From: an uncultured Myxococcales bacterium
Lineage (GTDB): Bacteria; Myxococcota_A; Polyangia; Palsa-1104; JAEUJZ01
Length of the DNA: 37,361 nt
Direction: 5' to 3'
NCBI GenBank assembly: GCA_937868485.1
Contig: CALMML010000381.1
Coordinates: forward strand, 1-37,361
In this document: positions 13,038 to 33,109 of the stretch, in pieces
Numbering within the stretch: the first letter of the stretch is position 1
Layout: the number at the start of each line of letters is the position of its first letter
Notes under the pieces: model-generated
Seen by the model: the letters and a program-made list of their open reading frames with translations, nothing else
Database searches by the model: none
Told to the model about the DNA's origin: nothing
Program-made: the position numbers and the translations under genes

Positions 13038-13433
13038 ATGAGTCACTTTACGACGGTCGCGACGAAGATTAACAACATCCAGTGCCTGCTCAAGGCGCTC
13101 GACAAGCTCAAGCTCAAGTACACGCACGCCGAGCAAGGGGTCGAAGTCCGAGGCTGGCGCGGTCAAAAGAGCACGGCTGAAGTGTCGATCAACATGGGTC
13201 GCTACGACATCGGCGTCGTCAAGAACGAAGACGGCACCTATGGTCTGCAAGCCGACTGGTGGGGAATCGAAACCACCGTCGGAAAGACCGAGCAAGAAGT
13301 CGTCGACGAGATCAACCGCGAGTATGCGTATCAGACCGTGGTCGTCGCGTGCGAAGAGCAGGGCTACCGAATCGAAGAGCAGAATGTCTCCGAGGACGGT
13401 ACGATCAAGCTTTCGGTATCAAAGTGGGGCTAG
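13038..13433 (+). CDS. DUF1257 (Ycf35-like) protein
   Basis: A 131-residue soluble protein beginning MSHFTTVATKI, with the DUF1257 pattern: a short N-terminal strand, ALDKLKL, a central strand-rich part (VSINMGRYDIGVV, YGLQADWWG) and the final helix-strand segment. It lies 15 bases behind the Ycf46-like ATPase, with GAGAGGAA as ribosome-binding site. Family members are known from plastid genomes (ycf35), cyanobacteria and scattered bacteria. Their function is not established. The tight linkage suggests that it is a partner or substrate adaptor of the ATPase. Confidence 0.85.
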   Translation: MSHFTTVATKINNIQCLLKALDKLKLKYTHAEQGVEVRGWRGQKSTAEVSINMGRYDIGVVKNEDGTYGLQADWWGIETTVGKTEQEVVDEINREYAYQTVVVACEEQGYRIEEQNVSEDGTIKLSVSKWG

Positions 13434-13466
13434 GCCCAGGCCAGTTCGTGCCACAAGGAGTTCACC

Positions 13467-13673
13467 ATGGCGCAGCGTAAAGAGCTTGAAATCACCATTT
13501 CTCCGTCGGGAGAGGTGTCGGTCCAGGTCAAGTGCATTCCCGGTCAGTCGTGCGTCGAGGAAACCAAGTTTCTCGAGGAAGCGCTCGGCAACCAAGTGAC
13601 CGATCGTCAGCTTACGTCGGACTACTACCAGCAGGGCAACACCAGCAGCGGAGACGTCTACAACCGAGGCTAA
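13467..13673 (+). CDS. DUF2997 small protein
   Basis: A 68-residue protein with a strong ribosome-binding site (AAGGAG, seven bases before ATG). The sequence ELEITISPSGEVSVQVKCI, GQSCVEETKFLEEALG, DYYQQ follows the DUF2997 pattern: two beta strands, a Gly-x-x-Cys turn, a helix ending LEEALG and a short tail. It is the last gene of the + strand operon and follows the Ycf35-like gene by 33 bases. Function is unknown. Its size and constant neighbours suggest a small subunit or tag-like partner for the AAA+ ATPase and DUF1257 protein (inference). Confidence 0.8.
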   Translation: MAQRKELEITISPSGEVSVQVKCIPGQSCVEETKFLEEALGNQVTDRQLTSDYYQQGNTSSGDVYNRG

Positions 13674-13751
13674 GGCGCTCGGCGGATCGCTCGCTCTCGC
13701 TACATTCTCGTCGCTGGCTTCGCTCCCTTTTGTCCGACTTCACATCATCTG

Positions 13752-14753
13752 TCATCGCGCGGCTTGCGTCTTCGTCACGGCTCGTCGGCGATCGATCATC
13801 GCTTTGACGGCTTGAAACAGCTCCTCGGTCGTCGCCAGCGCTTCTTGCCGACTACGCGGCGCGGTCTGAAGGGCTGCACCGATGTGACGCAGCGCTTGCT
13901 GGGCTCGGCCTCGTCGCAGCGCAAACATCGCCCACGAAAGGTGCTGCGCGCAGCCGGTCAGACGCACTTCGTTGGGCAGTGAAAACGGCGCGGGAATCGG
14001 AATCCCTCGTCGCTGATACGCTTCTTTCACCACATCCAGCTTGAGCCGCGACTGGGTGTCGGAAAACTGCACGCAGGTGCTGGTGAAGTGCTGACGAAAC
14101 GACAACAGCACGTCGGGAAGGTTGGCCAGCCGTCCCTGTTCCGCCAAGCGCAGAAACAGATCGAGATCTTCCACCTTGTTGTACTGAGTCCGATATCCCC
14201 CGATCGCGAGCACCGCTTGTCGACGCATCATCGCCGCCGGATGAACCAGCGCCCAGCCGTAGCCCGACAGAAGCTGCGCGTCGATGTCTTCGTGAGACAG
14301 CGCTTGCGTCGGTTCTTTGATGGGATCGCCGAGCGGATCGATGACCAAGATCGCCGAGCCGACAGCGACGCACGCGGGATGCTGTGCCAGATAGGCCGCT
14401 TGCTTGTGGAGTCGGTCCGGCCACGCGATGTCGTCGGCATCCATCCGCGCCACCAGATCCGCCCGCGCCAGGGCCAGCGCTTCATTGAGCGCTCCGACGA
14501 TGCCAGTGTTGGGACGGCGAACCAGACGAATGCGCGCATCTTGCCGGGCCAGCTCGGTCAGCAGCTCACCTGAACCATCCGTCGAGCCGTCGTCGATCAC
14601 AATCAGCTCAAAGTCGCGTAGCGTCTGCGAAAGGATGCTGCGCACCGCCTGTTCGACATAGTCCGCCGCGTTGTAGACGGGCAGCAGCACCGAAACAAGC
14701 GGCGGCTTTGGCTTACTCTCGACGGAGCTGTGACGGTTCTGGCTAGTGTCCAA
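13752..14753 (-). CDS. Family 2 glycosyltransferase
   Basis: A 333-residue protein. The GT-A fold is clear: VSVLLPVYNAADYVEQAV at the start, IDDGSTDGS for nucleotide binding, RPNTGIVGALN, and MDADD as the metal-binding DxD motif, then EDLDLFLRLAE as the acceptor-side acidic motif. I choose a TTG start at 14753 because GAGGGAG lies seven bases before it and because longer reading would overlap the upstream gene deeply with no typical sequence. This start overlaps the upstream stop by 11 bases. No membrane helix is seen, so it acts on the cytoplasmic side, transferring a sugar to a polysaccharide, lipid or protein acceptor that cannot be named from sequence. It is the last of four - strand genes. 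Confidence 0.85.
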   Translation of the reverse strand: MDTSQNRHSSVESKPKPPLVSVLLPVYNAADYVEQAVRSILSQTLRDFELIVIDDGSTDGSGELLTELARQDARIRLVRRPNTGIVGALNEALALARADLVARMDADDIAWPDRLHKQAAYLAQHPACVAVGSAILVIDPLGDPIKEPTQALSHEDIDAQLLSGYGWALVHPAAMMRRQAVLAIGGYRTQYNKVEDLDLFLRLAEQGRLANLPDVLLSFRQHFTSTCVQFSDTQSRLKLDVVKEAYQRRGIPIPAPFSLPNEVRLTGCAQHLSWAMFALRRGRAQQALRHIGAALQTAPRSRQEALATTEELFQAVKAMIDRRRAVTKTQAAR

Positions 14754-25834: not shown

Positions 25835-26473
25835 GTGCCCGTCGTGAATCCGCAGCCGAGCCCGGCCAAGTATTGCGCATCGTGCCGAGGGATTTTTCCC
25901 GTAGAGGCCACGGTGTGCGAGCGCGACGGCTCGCCGCTGGAACAGGTCGAGCAAGTGCTGGCCGGACGATATGTCCTCAAGAGCGTGATCGGCTCGGGCA
26001 ACATGGGCACGGTGTACCGAGCGACGCAGCTGCCGATGGGACGCGACGTCGCGGTGAAGCTGATGCACAGCGATCTGGTTCGCAATCCAGATCTGGTCGA
26101 GCGCTTCGAGCGAGAAGCGCAAGCCGCAGCGACGGTGGATCATCCCAACGCGATCACGGTGTTTGATAGCGGACGGACCAGCGACGGACAGGTTTACATC
26201 TCGATGGAGCTGCTCGAAGGAGAGAGCCTGTCGGCGATGATCGATCGCGAAATTCAGATTCCTCCCGAGCGCGCGCTGGAGCTGTGGATTCCCGTCGTAA
26301 AAGCCATGGTCGTCGCCCACCGCAAGGGCGTGATCCACCGTGACCTCAAGCCGGATTTGATCTGGGCCGTCGGGGCGTGCGCGCTGCTTTCCCTGGGCAC
26401 TCGGGGGCTTTGGGGGAATGCGGTGGTCAGTGCGACAGGCACAGCGCAAGCAGCGGTGCGCACAGGACGTTGA
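25835..26473 (+). pseudogene. 5' part of an interrupted zinc-ribbon Ser/Thr protein kinase
   Basis: GTG start at 25835, 174 native codons to 26356. It has a small N-terminal zinc-ribbon (C14, C17, C28, D31) and then the N-lobe and half of the C-lobe of a Hanks-type kinase: glycine loop IGSGNMG (52-58), ATP-anchoring K75 in VAVK, E94, and the catalytic loop start HRDLKPD (168-174, Asp170 catalytic). After D174 the frame enters inserted DNA and adds 39 foreign codons before a stop at 26473. The missing remainder (beginning NIFVARR) lies from 30172. Rejoined at the 7-mer AGCCGGA the two parts give a 651-residue kinase with no frameshift. As it stands, the product lacks DFG and the activation segment and is not expected to be active, unless the insert is excised. 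Confidence 0.85.
26349..26355 (+). repeat. Left junction 7-mer AGCCGGA
   Basis: This is the left copy of the direct repeat that bounds the insert. It belongs to the kinase codons for K-P-D of HRDLKPD. The identical 7-mer is at 28257-28263 (between units) and 30165-30171 (right joint). The match ends exactly at seven bases on both sides. It could be a target-site duplication, a microhomology used in recombination, or a site-specific recombination core. Confidence 0.85.
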
Positions 26474-27125
26474 GGACGCCCATCATGACCATGACGAGGG
26501 CTGCGACGGCACCTTCGGTCTGGCCTAGCTCATAGGCTTTGGCTGTGCCCACGCCGTGTGCGCCTGCGCCAAACAAGGCTCCGCGCGCAAGGGACGAATG
26601 AATCGGCATCGCTTGGATGAGACGCTGTCCAATCACCGAGCCGAGCACGCCCGTCAGGATGACGAACAGTGCGGCCAGCTCGGGCTCTCCGCCGATGCGT
26701 CCTGCGATTTCCATGGCAAACGGCGTGCTGGTCGAGCGTGGCAAAAGGCTCAGGCGAATCGAGCCATCTATCCCGAGCAGGGTTGCCAGCCACCAGCTGG
26801 TGACGATCGAGGTGAGGCTGGCGGCGACGCTCCCAATCAAGATGACGGGACCGTGGGCTCGCAGCAGGGCTCTCTGACGGTGGATCGGTGCGGCAAAGGC
26901 TACGGTCGTCGGTCCCAGCAGCGCAACCAGCCAGCCGGTGCAGGCGGCGTACTGGCGATACGGCGTTCCCGTCGTCACAACCAGCAGCAGCAGCAGCGCC
27001 GGGGCGACCAGCAGCGGCGTGGTCCAGATGTGACGCCACACCGCGTGAATGCGTCGAGCTGCCGCAAAACAAGCCACGGTTGCTACGGACCAGCCGACGA
27101 CGGACAGAACGGATGGACTGTTCAC
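26427..27125 (-). CDS. lrgB: LrgB family membrane protein (copy 1)
   Basis: A 232-residue protein. The GTG start at 27125 overlaps the lrgA stop by four bases (GTGA). A longer reading to 27767 would run antisense-like through lrgA in another frame and is rejected. It is a multi-pass membrane protein with typical LrgB segments: LLGPTTVAFAAPIHRQ, RSTSTPFAMEIAGRIGG, and FGAGAHGVGTAKAYELGQ, the latter being the family's conserved loop. LrgAB/CidAB proteins are linked to murein hydrolase control, programmed cell lysis and export of pyruvate or glycolate-type small acids. It lies in the duplicated insert, on the strand opposite to the interrupted kinase. Confidence 0.88.
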   Translation of the reverse strand: MNSPSVLSVVGWSVATVACFAAARRIHAVWRHIWTTPLLVAPALLLLLVVTTGTPYRQYAACTGWLVALLGPTTVAFAAPIHRQRALLRAHGPVILIGSVAASLTSIVTSWWLATLLGIDGSIRLSLLPRSTSTPFAMEIAGRIGGEPELAALFVILTGVLGSVIGQRLIQAMPIHSSLARGALFGAGAHGVGTAKAYELGQTEGAVAALVMVMMGVLNVLCAPLLALCLSH

Positions 27126-27517
27126 CGCGTGACTCTCCGTCGCACACCCAGTTCGATGACCAGCCCGGTCACTGCCATCACCGCCAGCGTACTGCCGACG
27201 AGCACGACCAGCAATTTCAGGATCATCATCCCGCCAAGCTCTGGGTGATCGATCACGGCCAGCGTCGTAGGCACAAAGAACAGCAGCATCAGGTGCAGCA
27301 GCCAGTCGGCTCCGCGACGAATCGACAGCGGCGACAGCCCGCGTGAAAACAGCAGCACCAGCGTGATAAGCAGCCCGAGCACGCCTCCCGAGATCGGCAG
27401 GCCGGTCTTCTTGGCGATGAGCGCTCCAACGCTCCAGAGCAGTCCAAGCAGCGCGATTTGCAGCGGACGACTTCCGCGCAGTCTGCGACGCAATCGGACG
27501 GACCAGCGATTCCACAT
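27122..27517 (-). CDS. lrgA: CidA/LrgA family membrane protein (copy 1)
   Basis: A 131-residue protein with about four membrane helices. The family pattern is visible: IALLGLLWSVGALIAKKTGLPISGGVLGLL, then LLHLMLLFFVPTTLAVI, then a final helix VLVGSTLAVMAVTGLVIEL. CidA/LrgA proteins are small holin-like membrane proteins that act with LrgB. The gene comes first, with lrgB overlapping it by four bases, as is usual for lrgAB operons. No convincing ribosome-binding site is visible upstream of the ATG. It diverges from the 168-aa gene across about 135 bases. Confidence 0.85.
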   Translation of the reverse strand: MWNRWSVRLRRRLRGSRPLQIALLGLLWSVGALIAKKTGLPISGGVLGLLITLVLLFSRGLSPLSIRRGADWLLHLMLLFFVPTTLAVIDHPELGGMMILKLLVVLVGSTLAVMAVTGLVIELGVRRRVTR

Positions 27518-27624
27518 GATGAGGAGACTCTAGCGCGCCTTTGGGCTGGCTCGGTGGCGGTCTCGCAGTCGATCGATCTGCTTCCGTCGCCAAACGCAAG
27601 CGATCGCACGTCGTAGTCGCCGCT

Positions 27625-27633
27625 TGATATACT
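27625..27633 (+). promoter_or_regulatory. Extended -10 promoter of the 168-aa gene (copy 1)
   Basis: TGATATACT is an extended -10 element (TGn followed by TATACT). The -35 region is weak (TCGCAC). A start near 27640 would leave a leader of about 13 bases, containing the GGGCGGGGG ribosome-binding site of the gene at 27653. The element is repeated identically in copy 2. Confidence 0.5.
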
Positions 27634-27652
27634 GCAAAGTTGGGCGGGGGCG

Positions 27653-28159
27653 ATGAAGCTAGAGGTTCTGGAGCGGTCGCAGAGTCAGTGCATCGGCAGC
27701 TACGGCAACGTCTGCATCGCGGTGCGCTGGGAGTTTTTGGTCGAGTCCGATACGGCGGCCATCGCACGGGCGCTCGACCGGATGAAAGCCAGCTCGACCG
27801 ACGGAACTTCGGCTTTTTTGCAAGTGAATCGCTTTGTGCCAGCGGCGGGCGGCGCGATGGGAATCGATGACGGTGCGCAAGCGGCGACGGTGAACCTGAT
27901 TCGGACGTACGGTCCCTCGCAGCGGGCGCTGGTGTTCTGTGTGCCGGATCAGCCGTTTTTGATGGCGTCGCTGCGCAGCATGTTTTCCCGCATGGTGCTT
28001 GCGACCAAGATTCGCCTGGATCTGCGGGTGACGACCAGCCTGCCGGAAGCCGTGAGCTTGGTCTGTAAGTCGCTCGCGGGCAGCAGTGGCGAACGGATCC
28101 AGCCGTCGGCGCTGCTGTCGGCGGTGGACGAGCTAGAGCAAAAGCGGCCCGGTCGCTAG
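27653..28159 (+). CDS. Uncharacterised 168-residue protein (copy 1)
   Basis: Preceded by a G-rich ribosome-binding site directly before the ATG. The protein starts with a strand-rich segment (CIGSYGNVCIAVRWEFL), has alternating helices and strands (AIARALDRMKAS, FLQVNRFVPAA, ATVNLIRTYG, LVFCVPDQPFLMASLRSMFSRM) and a C-terminal helical part. It recalls a group of small alpha/beta, SpoIIAA/STAS-like proteins common in myxobacterial genomes, but this is only an impression. No signal peptide or membrane helix. It diverges from lrgAB and is carried in the same duplicated unit, so it may regulate or work with them. Function unknown. Confidence 0.75.
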   Translation: MKLEVLERSQSQCIGSYGNVCIAVRWEFLVESDTAAIARALDRMKASSTDGTSAFLQVNRFVPAAGGAMGIDDGAQAATVNLIRTYGPSQRALVFCVPDQPFLMASLRSMFSRMVLATKIRLDLRVTTSLPEAVSLVCKSLAGSSGERIQPSALLSAVDELEQKRPGR

Positions 28160-28256
28160 CGCTCGCTGCCGATCCGACATGGACGGTTCCCGCGTACTTC
28201 CCAGCGTGCGCGTGGGCAGAGCCTGTTGGCGACGGAAAACGATCCGAGAAACTGTC

Positions 28257-28263
28257 AGCCGGA
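28257..28263 (+). repeat. Middle junction 7-mer AGCCGGA
   Basis: The copy between unit 1 and unit 2. It is followed by TTTGATC, as at the left joint, and preceded by ACTGTC, as at the right joint. This shows that both outer joints recur in one internal joint. Confidence 0.85.
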
Positions 28264-28334
28264 TTTGATCTGGGCCGTCGGGGCGTGCGTGCTGCTTTCC
28301 CTGGGCACTCGGGGGCTTTGGGGGAATGCGGTGG

Positions 28335-29033
28335 TCAGTGCGACAGGCACAGCGCAAGCAGCGGTGCGCACAGGACGTTGAGGACGCCCATCATGACCAT
28401 GACGAGGGCTGCGACGGCACCTTCGGTCTGGCCTAGCTCATAGGCTTTGGCTGTGCCCACGCCGTGTGCGCCTGCGCCAAACAAGGCTCCGCGCGCAAGG
28501 GACGAATGAATCGGCATCGCTTGGATGAGACGCTGTCCAATCACCGAGCCGAGCACGCCCGTCAGGATGACGAACAGTGCGGCCAGCTCGGGCTCTCCGC
28601 CGATGCGTCCTGCGATTTCCATGGCAAACGGCGTGCTGGTCGAGCGTGGCAAAAGGCTCAGGCGAATCGAGCCATCTATCCCGAGCAGGGTTGCCAGCCA
28701 CCAGCTGGTGACGATCGAGGTGAGGCTGGCGGCGACGCTCCCAATCAAGATGACGGGACCGTGGGCTCGCAGCAGGGCTCTCTGACGGTGGATCGGTGCG
28801 GCAAAGGCTACGGTCGTCGGTCCCAGCAGCGCAACCAGCCAGCCGGTGCAGGCGGCGTACTGGCGATACGGCGTTCCCGTCGTCACAACCAGCAGCAGCA
28901 GCAGCGCCGGGGCGACCAGCAGCGGCGTGGTCCAGATGTGACGCCACACCGCGTGAATGCGTCGAGCTGCCGCAAAACAAGCCACGGTTGCTACGGACCA
29001 GCCGACGACGGACAGAACGGATGGACTGTTCAC
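28335..29033 (-). CDS. lrgB: LrgB family membrane protein (copy 2)
   Basis: Exact duplicate of the lrgB 1908 bases to the left, with the same GTG start and four-base overlap with lrgA. No base difference was seen inside the gene, so both copies encode the same 232-residue protein. Duplication may raise dosage, or may be very recent. Confidence 0.88.
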   Translation of the reverse strand: MNSPSVLSVVGWSVATVACFAAARRIHAVWRHIWTTPLLVAPALLLLLVVTTGTPYRQYAACTGWLVALLGPTTVAFAAPIHRQRALLRAHGPVILIGSVAASLTSIVTSWWLATLLGIDGSIRLSLLPRSTSTPFAMEIAGRIGGEPELAALFVILTGVLGSVIGQRLIQAMPIHSSLARGALFGAGAHGVGTAKAYELGQTEGAVAALVMVMMGVLNVLCAPLLALCLSH

Positions 29034-29425
29034 CGCGTGACTCTCCGTCGCACACCCAGTTCGATGACCAGCCCGGTCACTGCCATCACCGCCAGCGTAC
29101 TGCCGACGAGCACGACCAGCAATTTCAGGATCATCATCCCGCCAAGCTCTGGGTGATCGATCACGGCCAGCGTCGTAGGCACAAAGAACAGCAGCATCAG
29201 GTGCAGCAGCCAGTCGGCTCCGCGACGAATCGACAGCGGCGACAGCCCGCGTGAAAACAGCAGCACCAGCGTGATAAGCAGCCCGAGCACGCCTCCCGAG
29301 ATCGGCAGGCCGGTCTTCTTGGCGATGAGCGCTCCAACGCTCCAGAGCAGTCCAAGCAGCGCGATTTGCAGCGGACGACTTCCGCGCAGTCTGCGACGCA
29401 ATCGGACGGACCAGCGATTCCACAT
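29030..29425 (-). CDS. lrgA: CidA/LrgA family membrane protein (copy 2)
   Basis: Exact duplicate of the first lrgA, 131 residues with about four membrane helices. It is followed by lrgB copy 2 with a four-base overlap. Confidence 0.85.
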   Translation of the reverse strand: MWNRWSVRLRRRLRGSRPLQIALLGLLWSVGALIAKKTGLPISGGVLGLLITLVLLFSRGLSPLSIRRGADWLLHLMLLFFVPTTLAVIDHPELGGMMILKLLVVLVGSTLAVMAVTGLVIELGVRRRVTR

Positions 29426-29532
29426 GATGAGGAGACTCTAGCGCGCCTTTGGGCTGGCTCGGTGGCGGTCTCGCAGTCGATCGATCTGCTTCCGTCGCCA
29501 AACGCAAGCGATCGCACGTCGTAGTCGCCGCT

Positions 29533-29541
29533 TGATATACT
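29533..29541 (+). promoter_or_regulatory. Extended -10 promoter of the 168-aa gene (copy 2)
   Basis: TGATATACT, identical to the element in unit 1, the same distance before the second copy of the gene. Transcription from here would read rightwards into the 3' part of the broken kinase gene, since no clear terminator follows the 168-aa gene. Confidence 0.5.
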
Positions 29542-29560
29542 GCAAAGTTGGGCGGGGGCG

Positions 29561-30067
29561 ATGAAGCTAGAGGTTCTGGAGCGGTCGCAGAGTCAGTGCA
29601 TCGGCAGCTACGGCAACGTCTGCATCGCGGTGCGCTGGGAGTTTTTGGTCGAGTCCGATACGGCGGCCATCGCACGGGCGCTCGACCGGATGAAAGCCAG
29701 CTCGACCGACGGAACTTCGGCTTTTTTGCAAGTGAATCGCTTTGTGCCAGCGGCGGGCGGCGCGATGGGAATCGATGACGGTGCGCAAGCGGCGACGGTG
29801 AACCTGATTCGGACGTACGGTCCCTCGCAGCGGGCGCTGGTGTTCTGTGTGCCGGATCAGCCGTTTTTGATGGCGTCGCTGCGCAGCATGTTTTCCCGCA
29901 TGGTGCTTGCGACCAAGATTCGCCTGGATCTGCGGGTGACGACCAGCCTGCCGGAAGCCGTGAGCTTGGTCTGTAAGTCGCTCGCGGGCAGCAGTGGCGA
30001 ACGGATCCAGCCGTCGGCGCTGCTGTCGGCGGTGGACGAGCTAGAGCAAAAGCGGCCCGGTCGCTAG
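29561..30067 (+). CDS. Uncharacterised 168-residue protein (copy 2)
   Basis: Identical to the gene at 27653. It ends 104 bases before the kinase sequence resumes. Because it points in the same direction, it may drive transcription of the kinase 3' part. Confidence 0.75.
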   Translation: MKLEVLERSQSQCIGSYGNVCIAVRWEFLVESDTAAIARALDRMKASSTDGTSAFLQVNRFVPAAGGAMGIDDGAQAATVNLIRTYGPSQRALVFCVPDQPFLMASLRSMFSRMVLATKIRLDLRVTTSLPEAVSLVCKSLAGSSGERIQPSALLSAVDELEQKRPGR

Positions 30068-30164
30068 CGCTCGCTGCCGATCCGACATGGACGGTTCCCG
30101 CGTACTTCCCAGCGTGCGCGTGGGCAGAGCCTGTTGGCGACGGAAAACGATCCGAGAAACTGTC

Positions 30165-30171
30165 AGCCGGA
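30165..30171 (+). repeat. Right junction 7-mer AGCCGGA
   Basis: The right copy, preceded by ACTGTC (unit end) and followed by CAACATC, which resumes the kinase codons for N-I of the catalytic loop. Confidence 0.85.
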
Positions 30172-31606
30172 CAACATCTTCGTGGCGCGACGGCTGAGCG
30201 ACGATGGCACGGTGGAAGAGGTCGTGAAGGTGCTCGACTTCGGGATCGCCAAGCTGCTGCAAGGTGGGCGGCGAGCGAGTCAAACCGTCGTCGGTGCGCG
30301 CATCGGAACGGCGATGTATATGTCGCCCGAACAGCTCGAAGGTCGAGAAGCGAGCCCGCGATCGGATGTCTATGCGCTCGGACTGGTGCTCATCGAGATC
30401 CTGACGGGACGGCTGCCGTGGGGCAAGACCGGGACGGAGACGGATCAAGCTGCGACGATGCTGCGGCTTATCAATCCGCCCAAGCGCCTGCGTGAGATGT
30501 GCGCCGGTCAGGTGTTTTCGCTGGAACTCCAGAAGCTGCTCGACGAGCTTCTGGCGTTTGAACCGTCGCTGCGACCGGCAGACGCAGGGGAGCTGATCCG
30601 TCGTCTGGGACTGGTGCCTGAAGCCGCACCGCTGGCGCAGCGAAGCTCACGACGGACGGAAGGCAGTCAGATGTTTGAAGCTGCCTATCTGAAGACAAAG
30701 CTGCCGTCGGATAGCCCTGCGGATACACCGCTTTCGGGGACAGAGCTACCGGCGGCGCGCAAAGGGCGAGGCCATCAAGATACGCCGACGCCCTATTTGG
30801 CTCCGGTTGCGACGGTGGTGACCAGTGGCCGACCAGCTGAGCTGCTGGATGGTCAGACGCCGCCCGACGGGCGAGAGCTGGCTGGTGTTCCGACGGTGGT
30901 GACTGCCAGTCGCCCGGATATGCCGCGCTTTTCTCAGTCGGTGCGCAACCATCATCCGCCGCTTGACGCAGAGACGCCGCCTGCGGGACGCGATCTGCCT
31001 TCGGTCCCGACGGTGGTGACACCTGCGGCGAACCTAAACTCGCTGGCGACTACGCTGCCAACAGGGATGAGCTTCGTCGGAAACAAGCAGGAACCGACGA
31101 CGCAGCCGCTTCCGCTTGCGCAGCTTCCGAGTGCGGCAGACAGCAACACGCTGCGACGGATTGTCTTTCGCGACCCGGCATTTCGGCGGGCGCTGCTGAA
31201 TCATCCGAAAGCTCGGCTGGGGCTCGTGTGCGTCGGTGCGCTGTGTGTGGGACTGATCTTGTGGTTGATTGTGCGGCCCAGTGGACCACAGTCGAAGCCG
31301 ACGTTTGTGCGCTCCGATGCGATTGCGAGTGACAAGCGTCCCGTCGATGTGAAGACGCCGCCGGTGAAGCCTCCCGTGGTGACACCGACGGAATATCCGC
31401 TGACCGTCGCGTTTTCGCGGAAGCGTCATCCGCGCGTGCAGATTCAGTGCGGACCGAGCATCTGCCAAAGCAACTGTCAGCTTGCGCCCGGAGAGGTCTG
31501 CGTCGCGCGGCTCATGGGCTTTAAGCCTCGTCAGTACAGCTACGATGAGCTGAAACCGCTTGCGCAGGCCGGACACGTCGAGGTCGAAGTTCGTCTGAAT
31601 CGCTAA
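30172..31606 (+). pseudogene. 3' part of the interrupted Ser/Thr protein kinase
   Basis: Kinase codons resume here with NIFVARR; the open frame extends left to a TTG at 30134 in inserted DNA. It holds DFG (196-198 of the rejoined protein), the activation segment, YMSPEQ (APE motif), SDVYALG and the rest of the C-lobe. A long linker follows with repeated phrases of type TPPxGRxLxxVPTVVT, then a membrane helix near residues 523-541 (LGLVCVGALCVGLILWLIV), and an extracytoplasmic tail with five Cys that may be a PEGA-like or small binding domain. Alone it lacks the ATP-binding N-lobe and catalytic Asp, so it cannot be an active kinase. No other lesion is seen, which argues that the interruption is recent or reversible. 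Confidence 0.85.
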
Positions 31607-31687: not shown

Positions 31688-33109
31688 GTGTCGCGCTCGC
31701 AAGCTACGTTGGTTCCACCTCGCTCGCTCGATGCCGTCGAGCACTCGCGTCCTGGCGACGAAGTCAGCACGTCTACGCTGCAGTGGCAGGCTCCGCCGGA
31801 AAAGCTGGCGCTGCGTCCTGGCTATACCGTCGGAAAGCGACTGGGCGCGGGTGGATCGGCGGAAGTCTTCGAGGCAGAGCTTCGTCGACCACCGCTTCCG
31901 CCCCAGCGCGTTGCCCTGAAGCGACTGCTGCCGGGACTGCGGGCCGATCCGATGCAGCAGCGAAAGCTTCGACGAGAAGCGCAGATCGGAGCCACGCTCT
32001 TGCACGACAACATCGTCAGCACGCTCGAGCTTATCGATCTGGGCGACGAAGTGGCGCTGGCAATGGAGCTGGTCGACGGACTGCCCGGTCAGCGTCTGCT
32101 GGCTCTGTTGACCGAGCATGGCTTTCGGCTGCGGCCTCCGCTCGTCGGACACATTCTGCACGGCGTGTTTTCGGCGCTGCACTATCTGCAGAGCCTGAAG
32201 CCGGGACAGCGACCGCTGGTGCACGCCGATCTGAGCCTGGAAAACGTGATGCTGGCGCGAGATGGTCGCGTCCGTCTGATCGACTTTGGCTTGTCGACGG
32301 AAGATGGTGGCTCCCCTGAGTCTGAAGACAGCGACGATGCACTGACCGCGCTGCATGAAGTGGGTGGCAAGCCGTCGTATGCGCCGCCGGAAGGAATGCC
32401 TCGGGTTCCGACGGTGGTCGGCGATCTGTACGCGGCAGGTGTCTGCGCGTGGGAGCTTCTTTCGGGACGACGATTTCCGGTGCTACCGAAAGGAACGGGC
32501 AAGCGCGAGCTGGGGAGCGTGGTTGCGTTTGCAGCGAGTGGACAGCCTGCGCAGGTGTGGTTGCTGCTTCGAGACTGTCTGGCGCTGGCTCCGAGTGAGC
32601 GCTTGCAGAGTGCGGAGCAAGGTCTGTCCGTTTGTGCGCGCCTGCGTGAAGGACATCCGACGGAAGCTGCGCTGGCCAAGCTGGTTCGCTCGCTGCAACT
32701 CGCGGGATCGGACTGGCTGCCTCCTGACGCGCTGCTTCCCTTTCTTCATCGCTTTGATCCCACGATGGATCTGGCGGATCGACTGCGTCAGTCCTTTGCG
32801 GCCCAGCAGGTGGAAGTGTTCGCGCACGCTGCTGGTGACGTGATGGAACCGTCGCTGATGAGCGATCCGATTCCTCATGCAGCGTCGCAGTTTGTGCAGC
32901 AAGCACGCGTCGGCCAAGGTCGCAGCCGTCCGTCCGATGATGTGCTGCTGGCGGCGCTTGATGAGGGATTTGCAACGAGTGCAGACGGTCTGCTCTGTCT
33001 GCGCGCGCGCGTGGCTGGACAGCGAGATCTCGTTGTGGTCCTCGACCCCGGACCGGGCTGTGGCTACTCTGCAACGGCGTCCGCACTGCTCCGCAGCATC
33101 CTTCAGTAG
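31688..33109 (+). CDS. Ser/Thr protein kinase-fold protein with unusual catalytic loop
   Basis: A 473-residue protein. The kinase core is clear: glycine loop LGAGGSA (52-58), K78 in VALK, an REAQ helix for the paired Glu, catalytic loop HADLSLEN (179-186, Asp181), DFG (199-201), and a YAPPEG segment at the APE position. The usual HRD Arg is Ala, so activation-loop phosphorylation is probably not needed; such 'HxD' kinases can be constitutively active. The last 170 residues are helical with no recognised domain, and no membrane helix is seen, so it is cytoplasmic. It starts 81 bases after the interrupted kinase gene and may be co-transcribed with it. Substrate unknown. The phospho-binding FHA proteins of the injection operon are possible downstream readers, but this link is speculation. 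Confidence 0.8.
   Translation: MSRSQATLVPPRSLDAVEHSRPGDEVSTSTLQWQAPPEKLALRPGYTVGKRLGAGGSAEVFEAELRRPPLPPQRVALKRLLPGLRADPMQQRKLRREAQIGATLLHDNIVSTLELIDLGDEVALAMELVDGLPGQRLLALLTEHGFRLRPPLVGHILHGVFSALHYLQSLKPGQRPLVHADLSLENVMLARDGRVRLIDFGLSTEDGGSPESEDSDDALTALHEVGGKPSYAPPEGMPRVPTVVGDLYAAGVCAWELLSGRRFPVLPKGTGKRELGSVVAFAASGQPAQVWLLLRDCLALAPSERLQSAEQGLSVCARLREGHPTEAALAKLVRSLQLAGSDWLPPDALLPFLHRFDPTMDLADRLRQSFAAQQVEVFAHAAGDVMEPSLMSDPIPHAASQFVQQARVGQGRSRPSDDVLLAALDEGFATSADGLLCLRARVAGQRDLVVVLDPGPGCGYSATASALLRSILQ

Follow-up and report, generated by a model that had tools for sequence, protein, structure and literature searches.

The sigK skin element and the nifD and fdxN heterocyst elements each interrupt a gene in frame, at a short direct repeat, and the gene can be exactly restored. 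Integrative elements as a rule enter a genome at one site or a few, and they frequently leave the target gene intact or rebuild it. The locus described here, from an uncultured Myxococcales bacterium, is a Ser/Thr kinase gene (kinase A) interrupted within the codons of its catalytic loop. The window, that is, the whole stretch of 37,361 nucleotides that was analysed, is the entire contig C381 of an assembly (G000) of 514 contigs and 6.36 Mb. The target is a motif common to a family of more than 100 genes, so that there are many landing places, and the genes hit are split. In this way, mobile DNA appears to use the best conserved part of a large kinase family as a landing site.

The split kinase and its insert

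Kinase A reads ...GVIHRDLKPD up to position 26355, where it gives way to unrelated DNA, and kinase codons are found again from 30165. When the flanks are joined at the 7-mer AGCCGGA, the result is 1,956 nt, that is, 651 codons and a stop, with no frameshift or internal stop. The original prediction, which placed the cut between KPD and NIFV and expected exact removal at this 7-mer to give back a full kinase of 651 residues, is thus borne out. It had also described an insert of 3.8 kb; an insertion is indeed present, although not as a single insert, being made of two head-to-tail units of 1,908 bp which differ at one base (C at 26382, T at 28290). The features of the locus are the following:

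25835 to 26355, + strand: Ser/Thr kinase A, N-terminal part to HRDLKPD (PF00069 profile positions 1-127; orthologues)
26349 to 26355, + strand: left 7-bp core AGCCGGA (K-P-D codons)
26349 to 28256, + strand: cassette copy 1, 1,908 bp from core to core
26427 to 27125, - strand: lrgB-like gene, copy 1, GTG start, overlapping the lrgA stop (PF04172, E 1.9e-66; TIGR00659 below its cut-off)
27122 to 27517, - strand: lrgA-like gene, copy 1 (PF03788, E 1.2e-18)
27653 to 28159, + strand: 168-aa gene, copy 1 (a 74% identical protein lies beside the cut of a different kinase, B, in the relative G002)
28185 to 28204, + strand: right-end motif GGTTCCCGCGTACTTCCCAG, copy 1, 72 bp before the middle core
28257 to 28263, + strand: middle core AGCCGGA, unit-to-unit junction, attP-like
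28257 to 30164, + strand: cassette copy 2, with the T at 28290
28335 to 29033, - strand: lrgB-like gene, copy 2
29030 to 29425, - strand: lrgA-like gene, copy 2
29561 to 30067, + strand: 168-aa gene, copy 2
30093 to 30112, + strand: right-end motif, copy 2
30165 to 30171, + strand: right 7-bp core AGCCGGA
30165 to 31606, + strand: kinase A, C-terminal part, KPDN to stop

Immediately downstream of the split gene, at 31823-32608, there is a second kinase domain, which is complete.

A 7-bp repeat is found somewhere in two 50-bp stretches in about 17% of random pairs. Since such a match is not rare by its length, the argument rests on the register of the core with the kinase codons and on recurrence. 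The register, the third copy of AGCCGGA between the units (its occurrences start at 26349, 28257 and 30165) and the recurrence at the same codons elsewhere are beyond chance.

The gene content of each unit is limited to lrgA, lrgB and the 168-aa gene, and no integrase was found inside or adjoining the cassette. Neither a transposase gene nor an Rfam match at E up to 1, looked for as a sign of intron RNA, was found in the insert. The 168-aa protein had no match in Pfam, NCBIfam, PHROG or PADLOC, and the quality of its structure as predicted from two sequences is insufficient for any use (mean pLDDT 45). The G000 assembly holds no other full copy or second locus of the unit; a search of 38 relatives gave the 168-aa gene of G002 as the sole match, and lrgB was not found in any of the 18 other genomes searched.

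There is somewhat less than an even chance that the tandem pair is a product of assembly, in which an integrated cassette and a free circle, or a longer tandem, were represented by a loop unrolled once. Contig ends overlap by 55 bp, as for a short-read graph with k of about 55, and with such a k a 1.9-kb repeat would be assembled alike from one cassette and a circle, from a dimer or from a longer tandem. The one-base difference near the left end is consistent with either a true tandem or an artefact. This possibility touches the copy number alone: it leaves the insertion itself standing and is compatible with a cassette moved by an integrase. If the tandem is an artefact, the middle junction would itself be evidence of a circle; in any case, the AGCCGGA there is a recombinant site lying outside the kinase, as site-specific recombination predicts.

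Recurrent cuts at the kinase loop

A Pfam kinase scan of G000 gave 160 kinase-domain matches, halves included. In 21 of them the N-lobe ends at profile positions 122-134, and in six the C-lobe starts at positions 120-126, which correspond to the HRDLKPxN loop; some of these lobes stop where a contig ends, which in at least one case (C156) truncates an intact gene. When only N-halves with non-kinase DNA directly past the junction were counted, at least 13 kinases were split at the motif. The genomes used for comparison are metagenome assemblies, of which G002 and G007 are covered by the genome-wide count of splits. G002 has about as many split kinases as G000; in G007, a relative from another family that has 159 kinase matches and lacks integrases of the family discussed below, no split was found among the 150 matches listed.

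Among inserts with both halves on one contig, the shortest measures about 0.43 kb (L127) and the longest 16.6 kb (L113). The cargo is of several kinds: sulfate-assimilation genes with a CLC channel, LysR, NRPS-like genes, an MFS transporter, TauD and HmuY, as well as ABC-F-like, P450-like and esterase-like genes, the last three assigned by sequence reading only. In one case (L187:583-8491, contig C509 of G000) a kinase is split by 7.9 kb with two NRPS-like genes and an MFS transporter and no integrase; an AMP-binding domain was found in the one of the two NRPS-like genes that was scanned. Short (about 0.4 kb) or repeat-rich inserts with no clear gene are also seen at the K-P-D core (L127:936-1369; L112 with L189; L182), and are possibly MITE-like remnants. 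The cutting of one motif in many kinases by different elements points to mobile elements with a common attachment site.

The ends of the elements were compared by means of a 20-bp right-end motif learned from 15 other inserts, with the window excluded. This training set is not fully independent, because it includes the homologous right end that accompanies the 168-aa gene in G002; its unrelated members nevertheless show the same pattern. The two best matches in the window, at 28185 and 30093 (20.8 bits each, the next reaching 13.3 among more than 74,000 positions), are the right ends of the two units. With a stricter pattern, 18 occurrences were counted over 2.86 Mb of scanned strands, mostly about 70 bp before a kinase core, and integrase-bearing elements are among those with the motif ahead of the core. 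The left-end motif of other inserts, GGGGAAG at about 60 bp from the core, has a weak match in the cassette, the best score in its left end ranking 374 of 74,696 positions. Most inserts of the tyrosine type are flanked by direct repeats of 7-13 bp in the kinase register.

The integrases concerned belong to the family of the enzyme encoded on contig C98 of G002, with 8, 16, 12 and 12 homologues in G000, G001, G002 and G003, respectively. They contain a PF00589 domain, and the family varies little or not at all in its catalytic residues (R, K, HxxR, H and Y). In at least 10 of the 40 integrase loci read, a kinase is cut at the motif close to the integrase or to the element end (L067, L068, L073 with C55, L077, L079, L080, L082, L095, L100 and L104). 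Relatives of the integrase in viral contigs are few and distant, none of them lying beside a kinase half. The earlier statement that no recombinase is resident holds for the inside of the insert. Elsewhere the genome encodes eight integrases of the relevant family; with these, the puzzle of the missing enzyme is likely answered in trans.

A second type of element, which joins at the HRD codons, was seen in L111 and L113; L117 and L123 have related left ends. These four loci have the left-end sequence TTACGTAATTTCTA... in common, and the junctions share about two bases only. Serine recombinases with PF00239 and PF07508 domains are present in L113 (16260-17375) and in L111 of G002 (13145-14308).

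The original prediction had called for a comparison with the orthologous kinase of relatives. The gene is uninterrupted in G001 and intact in one of two forms in G002, both genomes being congeneric relatives; in the latter, the contig with the C-terminal half (C39) is preceded by two alternative contigs, each overlapping it by 141 bp. One of them (C42) holds the kinase N-half and gives the intact form; the other (C98) brings a different element to the same kinase codons, one that holds defence-like genes and a tyrosine integrase. This C98 element (L030:6805-12988) carries a DUF1016/YhcG nuclease, a HerA ATPase and an AAA/OLD-like ATPase, and has the aspect of a mobile defence-like island at a kinase. 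In G002, the homologue of the 168-aa gene is found some 100 bp ahead of the C-half of kinase B, with a right-end sequence as in the window, while the N-half of that kinase is on a separate contig, cut after HR. Comparison of orthologues thus places the cassette in kinase A of G000, with that kinase free in G001, and a related cassette in kinase B of G002, the loop of which is intact in both G000 and G001. In the same kinase B (L111 and L010), a left junction of the serine-recombinase type and a right junction of the tyrosine type are at least 19 kb apart, and elements seem to accumulate within this one split gene.

Proposed integration in trans and alternative explanations

The insert is, with good probability, a non-autonomous cassette integrated in trans by a tyrosine integrase whose attB is the DNA of the kinase catalytic loop. 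The cassette (lrgA, lrgB and the 168-aa gene) would enter kinase A by conservative site-specific recombination, catalysed by an integrase of the C98 family encoded elsewhere in G000. In this reaction, the 7-bp core AGCCGGA of a circular cassette would be joined to the same 7 bp as they occur among the K-P-D codons, the intact cassette core being represented by the AGCCGGA of the unit-to-unit junction. The loop is proposed as a multi-copy attB, at which many kinases would have received elements, because the many kinases of G000 share closely similar DNA there. Insertion would inactivate the kinase, whereas its exact restoration would follow from excision at the core. Two features by which tyrosine-integrase elements are recognised were found, namely an identical short core at both cassette ends, in register with the interrupted attB, and an arm-type right-end sequence common to the cassette and to integrase-bearing elements. 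Since the cassette has no integrase, it is classed as a non-autonomous member of this group only. The weak left-end match and the absence of an integrase from the cassette and its immediate surroundings speak against this explanation.

A broader proposal, less likely than not, is that two unrelated recombinase superfamilies have converged, in one family of Myxococcota, on a multi-copy attB made up of the loop codons of Hanks-type kinases. Cassettes devoid of integrase might then be shuffled in trans among kinase loci, and the active kinase repertoire of the population might be continuously reassorted by insertion and excision.

Among the competing explanations of the insertion, the one that survives best, although improbable, is a regulated on/off switch, in which timed excision, developmental or stochastic, would restore an active sensor kinase as in the skin and heterocyst elements. 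The exact restorability of kinase A speaks for it, as does the condition of the gene: the expectation of little other damage in the two halves agrees with a dN to the G001 orthologue of 0.184, both for the cut gene of G000 and for the intact G002 form. The lack of any surplus amino-acid change would fit a recent insertion or a part-time function. Moreover, the assembly graph of G002 contains the orthologue in both an intact and a cut form, and in G000 two N-halves have an intact continuation despite a fork at the motif. The first of these (C387) stops at CACAGAG; with an overlap of 55 bp, C352 extends it into an intact kinase, and the same fork pattern is seen for C12 and C362. C389, which holds an integrase element, runs on into the C-half C55, for which a further predecessor must exist. 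Such forks indicate more than one arrangement of some kinases in the sampled population and would fit excision, strain differences or ongoing insertion; strain mixtures explain them equally well. Against a switch, the insert lacks a dedicated recombinase and some other split kinases have changed codons at the junction (L067). The orthologues carry different inserts in G000 and G002 and none in G001; hence there is no conserved pair of kinase and element, and a dedicated switch is rated unlikely. The idea of an excisable switch made for one kinase is not supported as it was put forward, the same motif being cut in many kinases by different elements.

Transposition by a DDE transposase with a preference for the motif, leaving a 7-bp target duplication, is less probable still: it would account for the 7-bp direct repeats that flank the insert, but not for the lack of a transposase gene, the variation of the repeats of related inserts (7 to 13 bp), the same 7 bp at the middle junction, or the integrases carried by inserts with the same right end. 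A chimera of assembly, with kinase halves misjoined to other DNA at a conserved k-mer, hardly deserves credence, for although no stretch is repeated more often among the kinases than the loop DNA and many contigs end there, the 7 bp common at the window junctions are far below any usual k, cuts recur in several assemblies made independently (that of G002 by MEGAHIT at k141, with an overlap of 141 bp at the fork), the inserts have a common right-end motif, and the listed kinase matches of G007 are free of splits.

Relation to known systems

The cassette integrated in trans can be set against four kinds of described elements; no account of kinase loops as attB was found in the literature searched, which comprised open-licence full texts only. 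Integron gene cassettes are likewise small, free of a recombinase and arranged in tandem with a short site between copies, and they are moved in trans, as is probable here. They differ in their sites and enzymes: single-strand folding of the window cassette ends gave no hairpin signal, with no attC-like hairpin on the bottom strand (fold z-scores 0.5, 1.0, 0.2 and -0.1), the integrases score far below the cut-off of the XerA/integron-integrase model NF040815 (48.7 and 46.5 bits, cut-off 220), and there is no array behind an intI gene.

With the skin, nifD and fdxN elements, the locus shares the in-frame interruption at a short repeat and the exact restorability. Unlike them, the insert is without its own recombinase, and element and gene are not paired in a conserved manner. 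Large serine recombinase elements (Ccr, XisF-like) resemble the second type found here in their PF00239 and PF07508 recombinases; that type, however, targets the kinase HRD codons, and is not the type of the window insert.

Tyrosine-integrase genomic islands and integrative mobilizable elements whose attB lies in a protein-coding gene also have a PF00589 integrase, a short identical core, a gene split in frame and defence-type cargo. In the present case many inserts have no integrase, the elements do not rebuild the gene that they enter and, the target motif being common to a large paralogous family, many sites are occupied per genome. The system offers a test of whether site-specific recombination remodels the signalling repertoires of kinase-rich bacteria, together with a set of integrases with unusual and predictable protein-coding targets.
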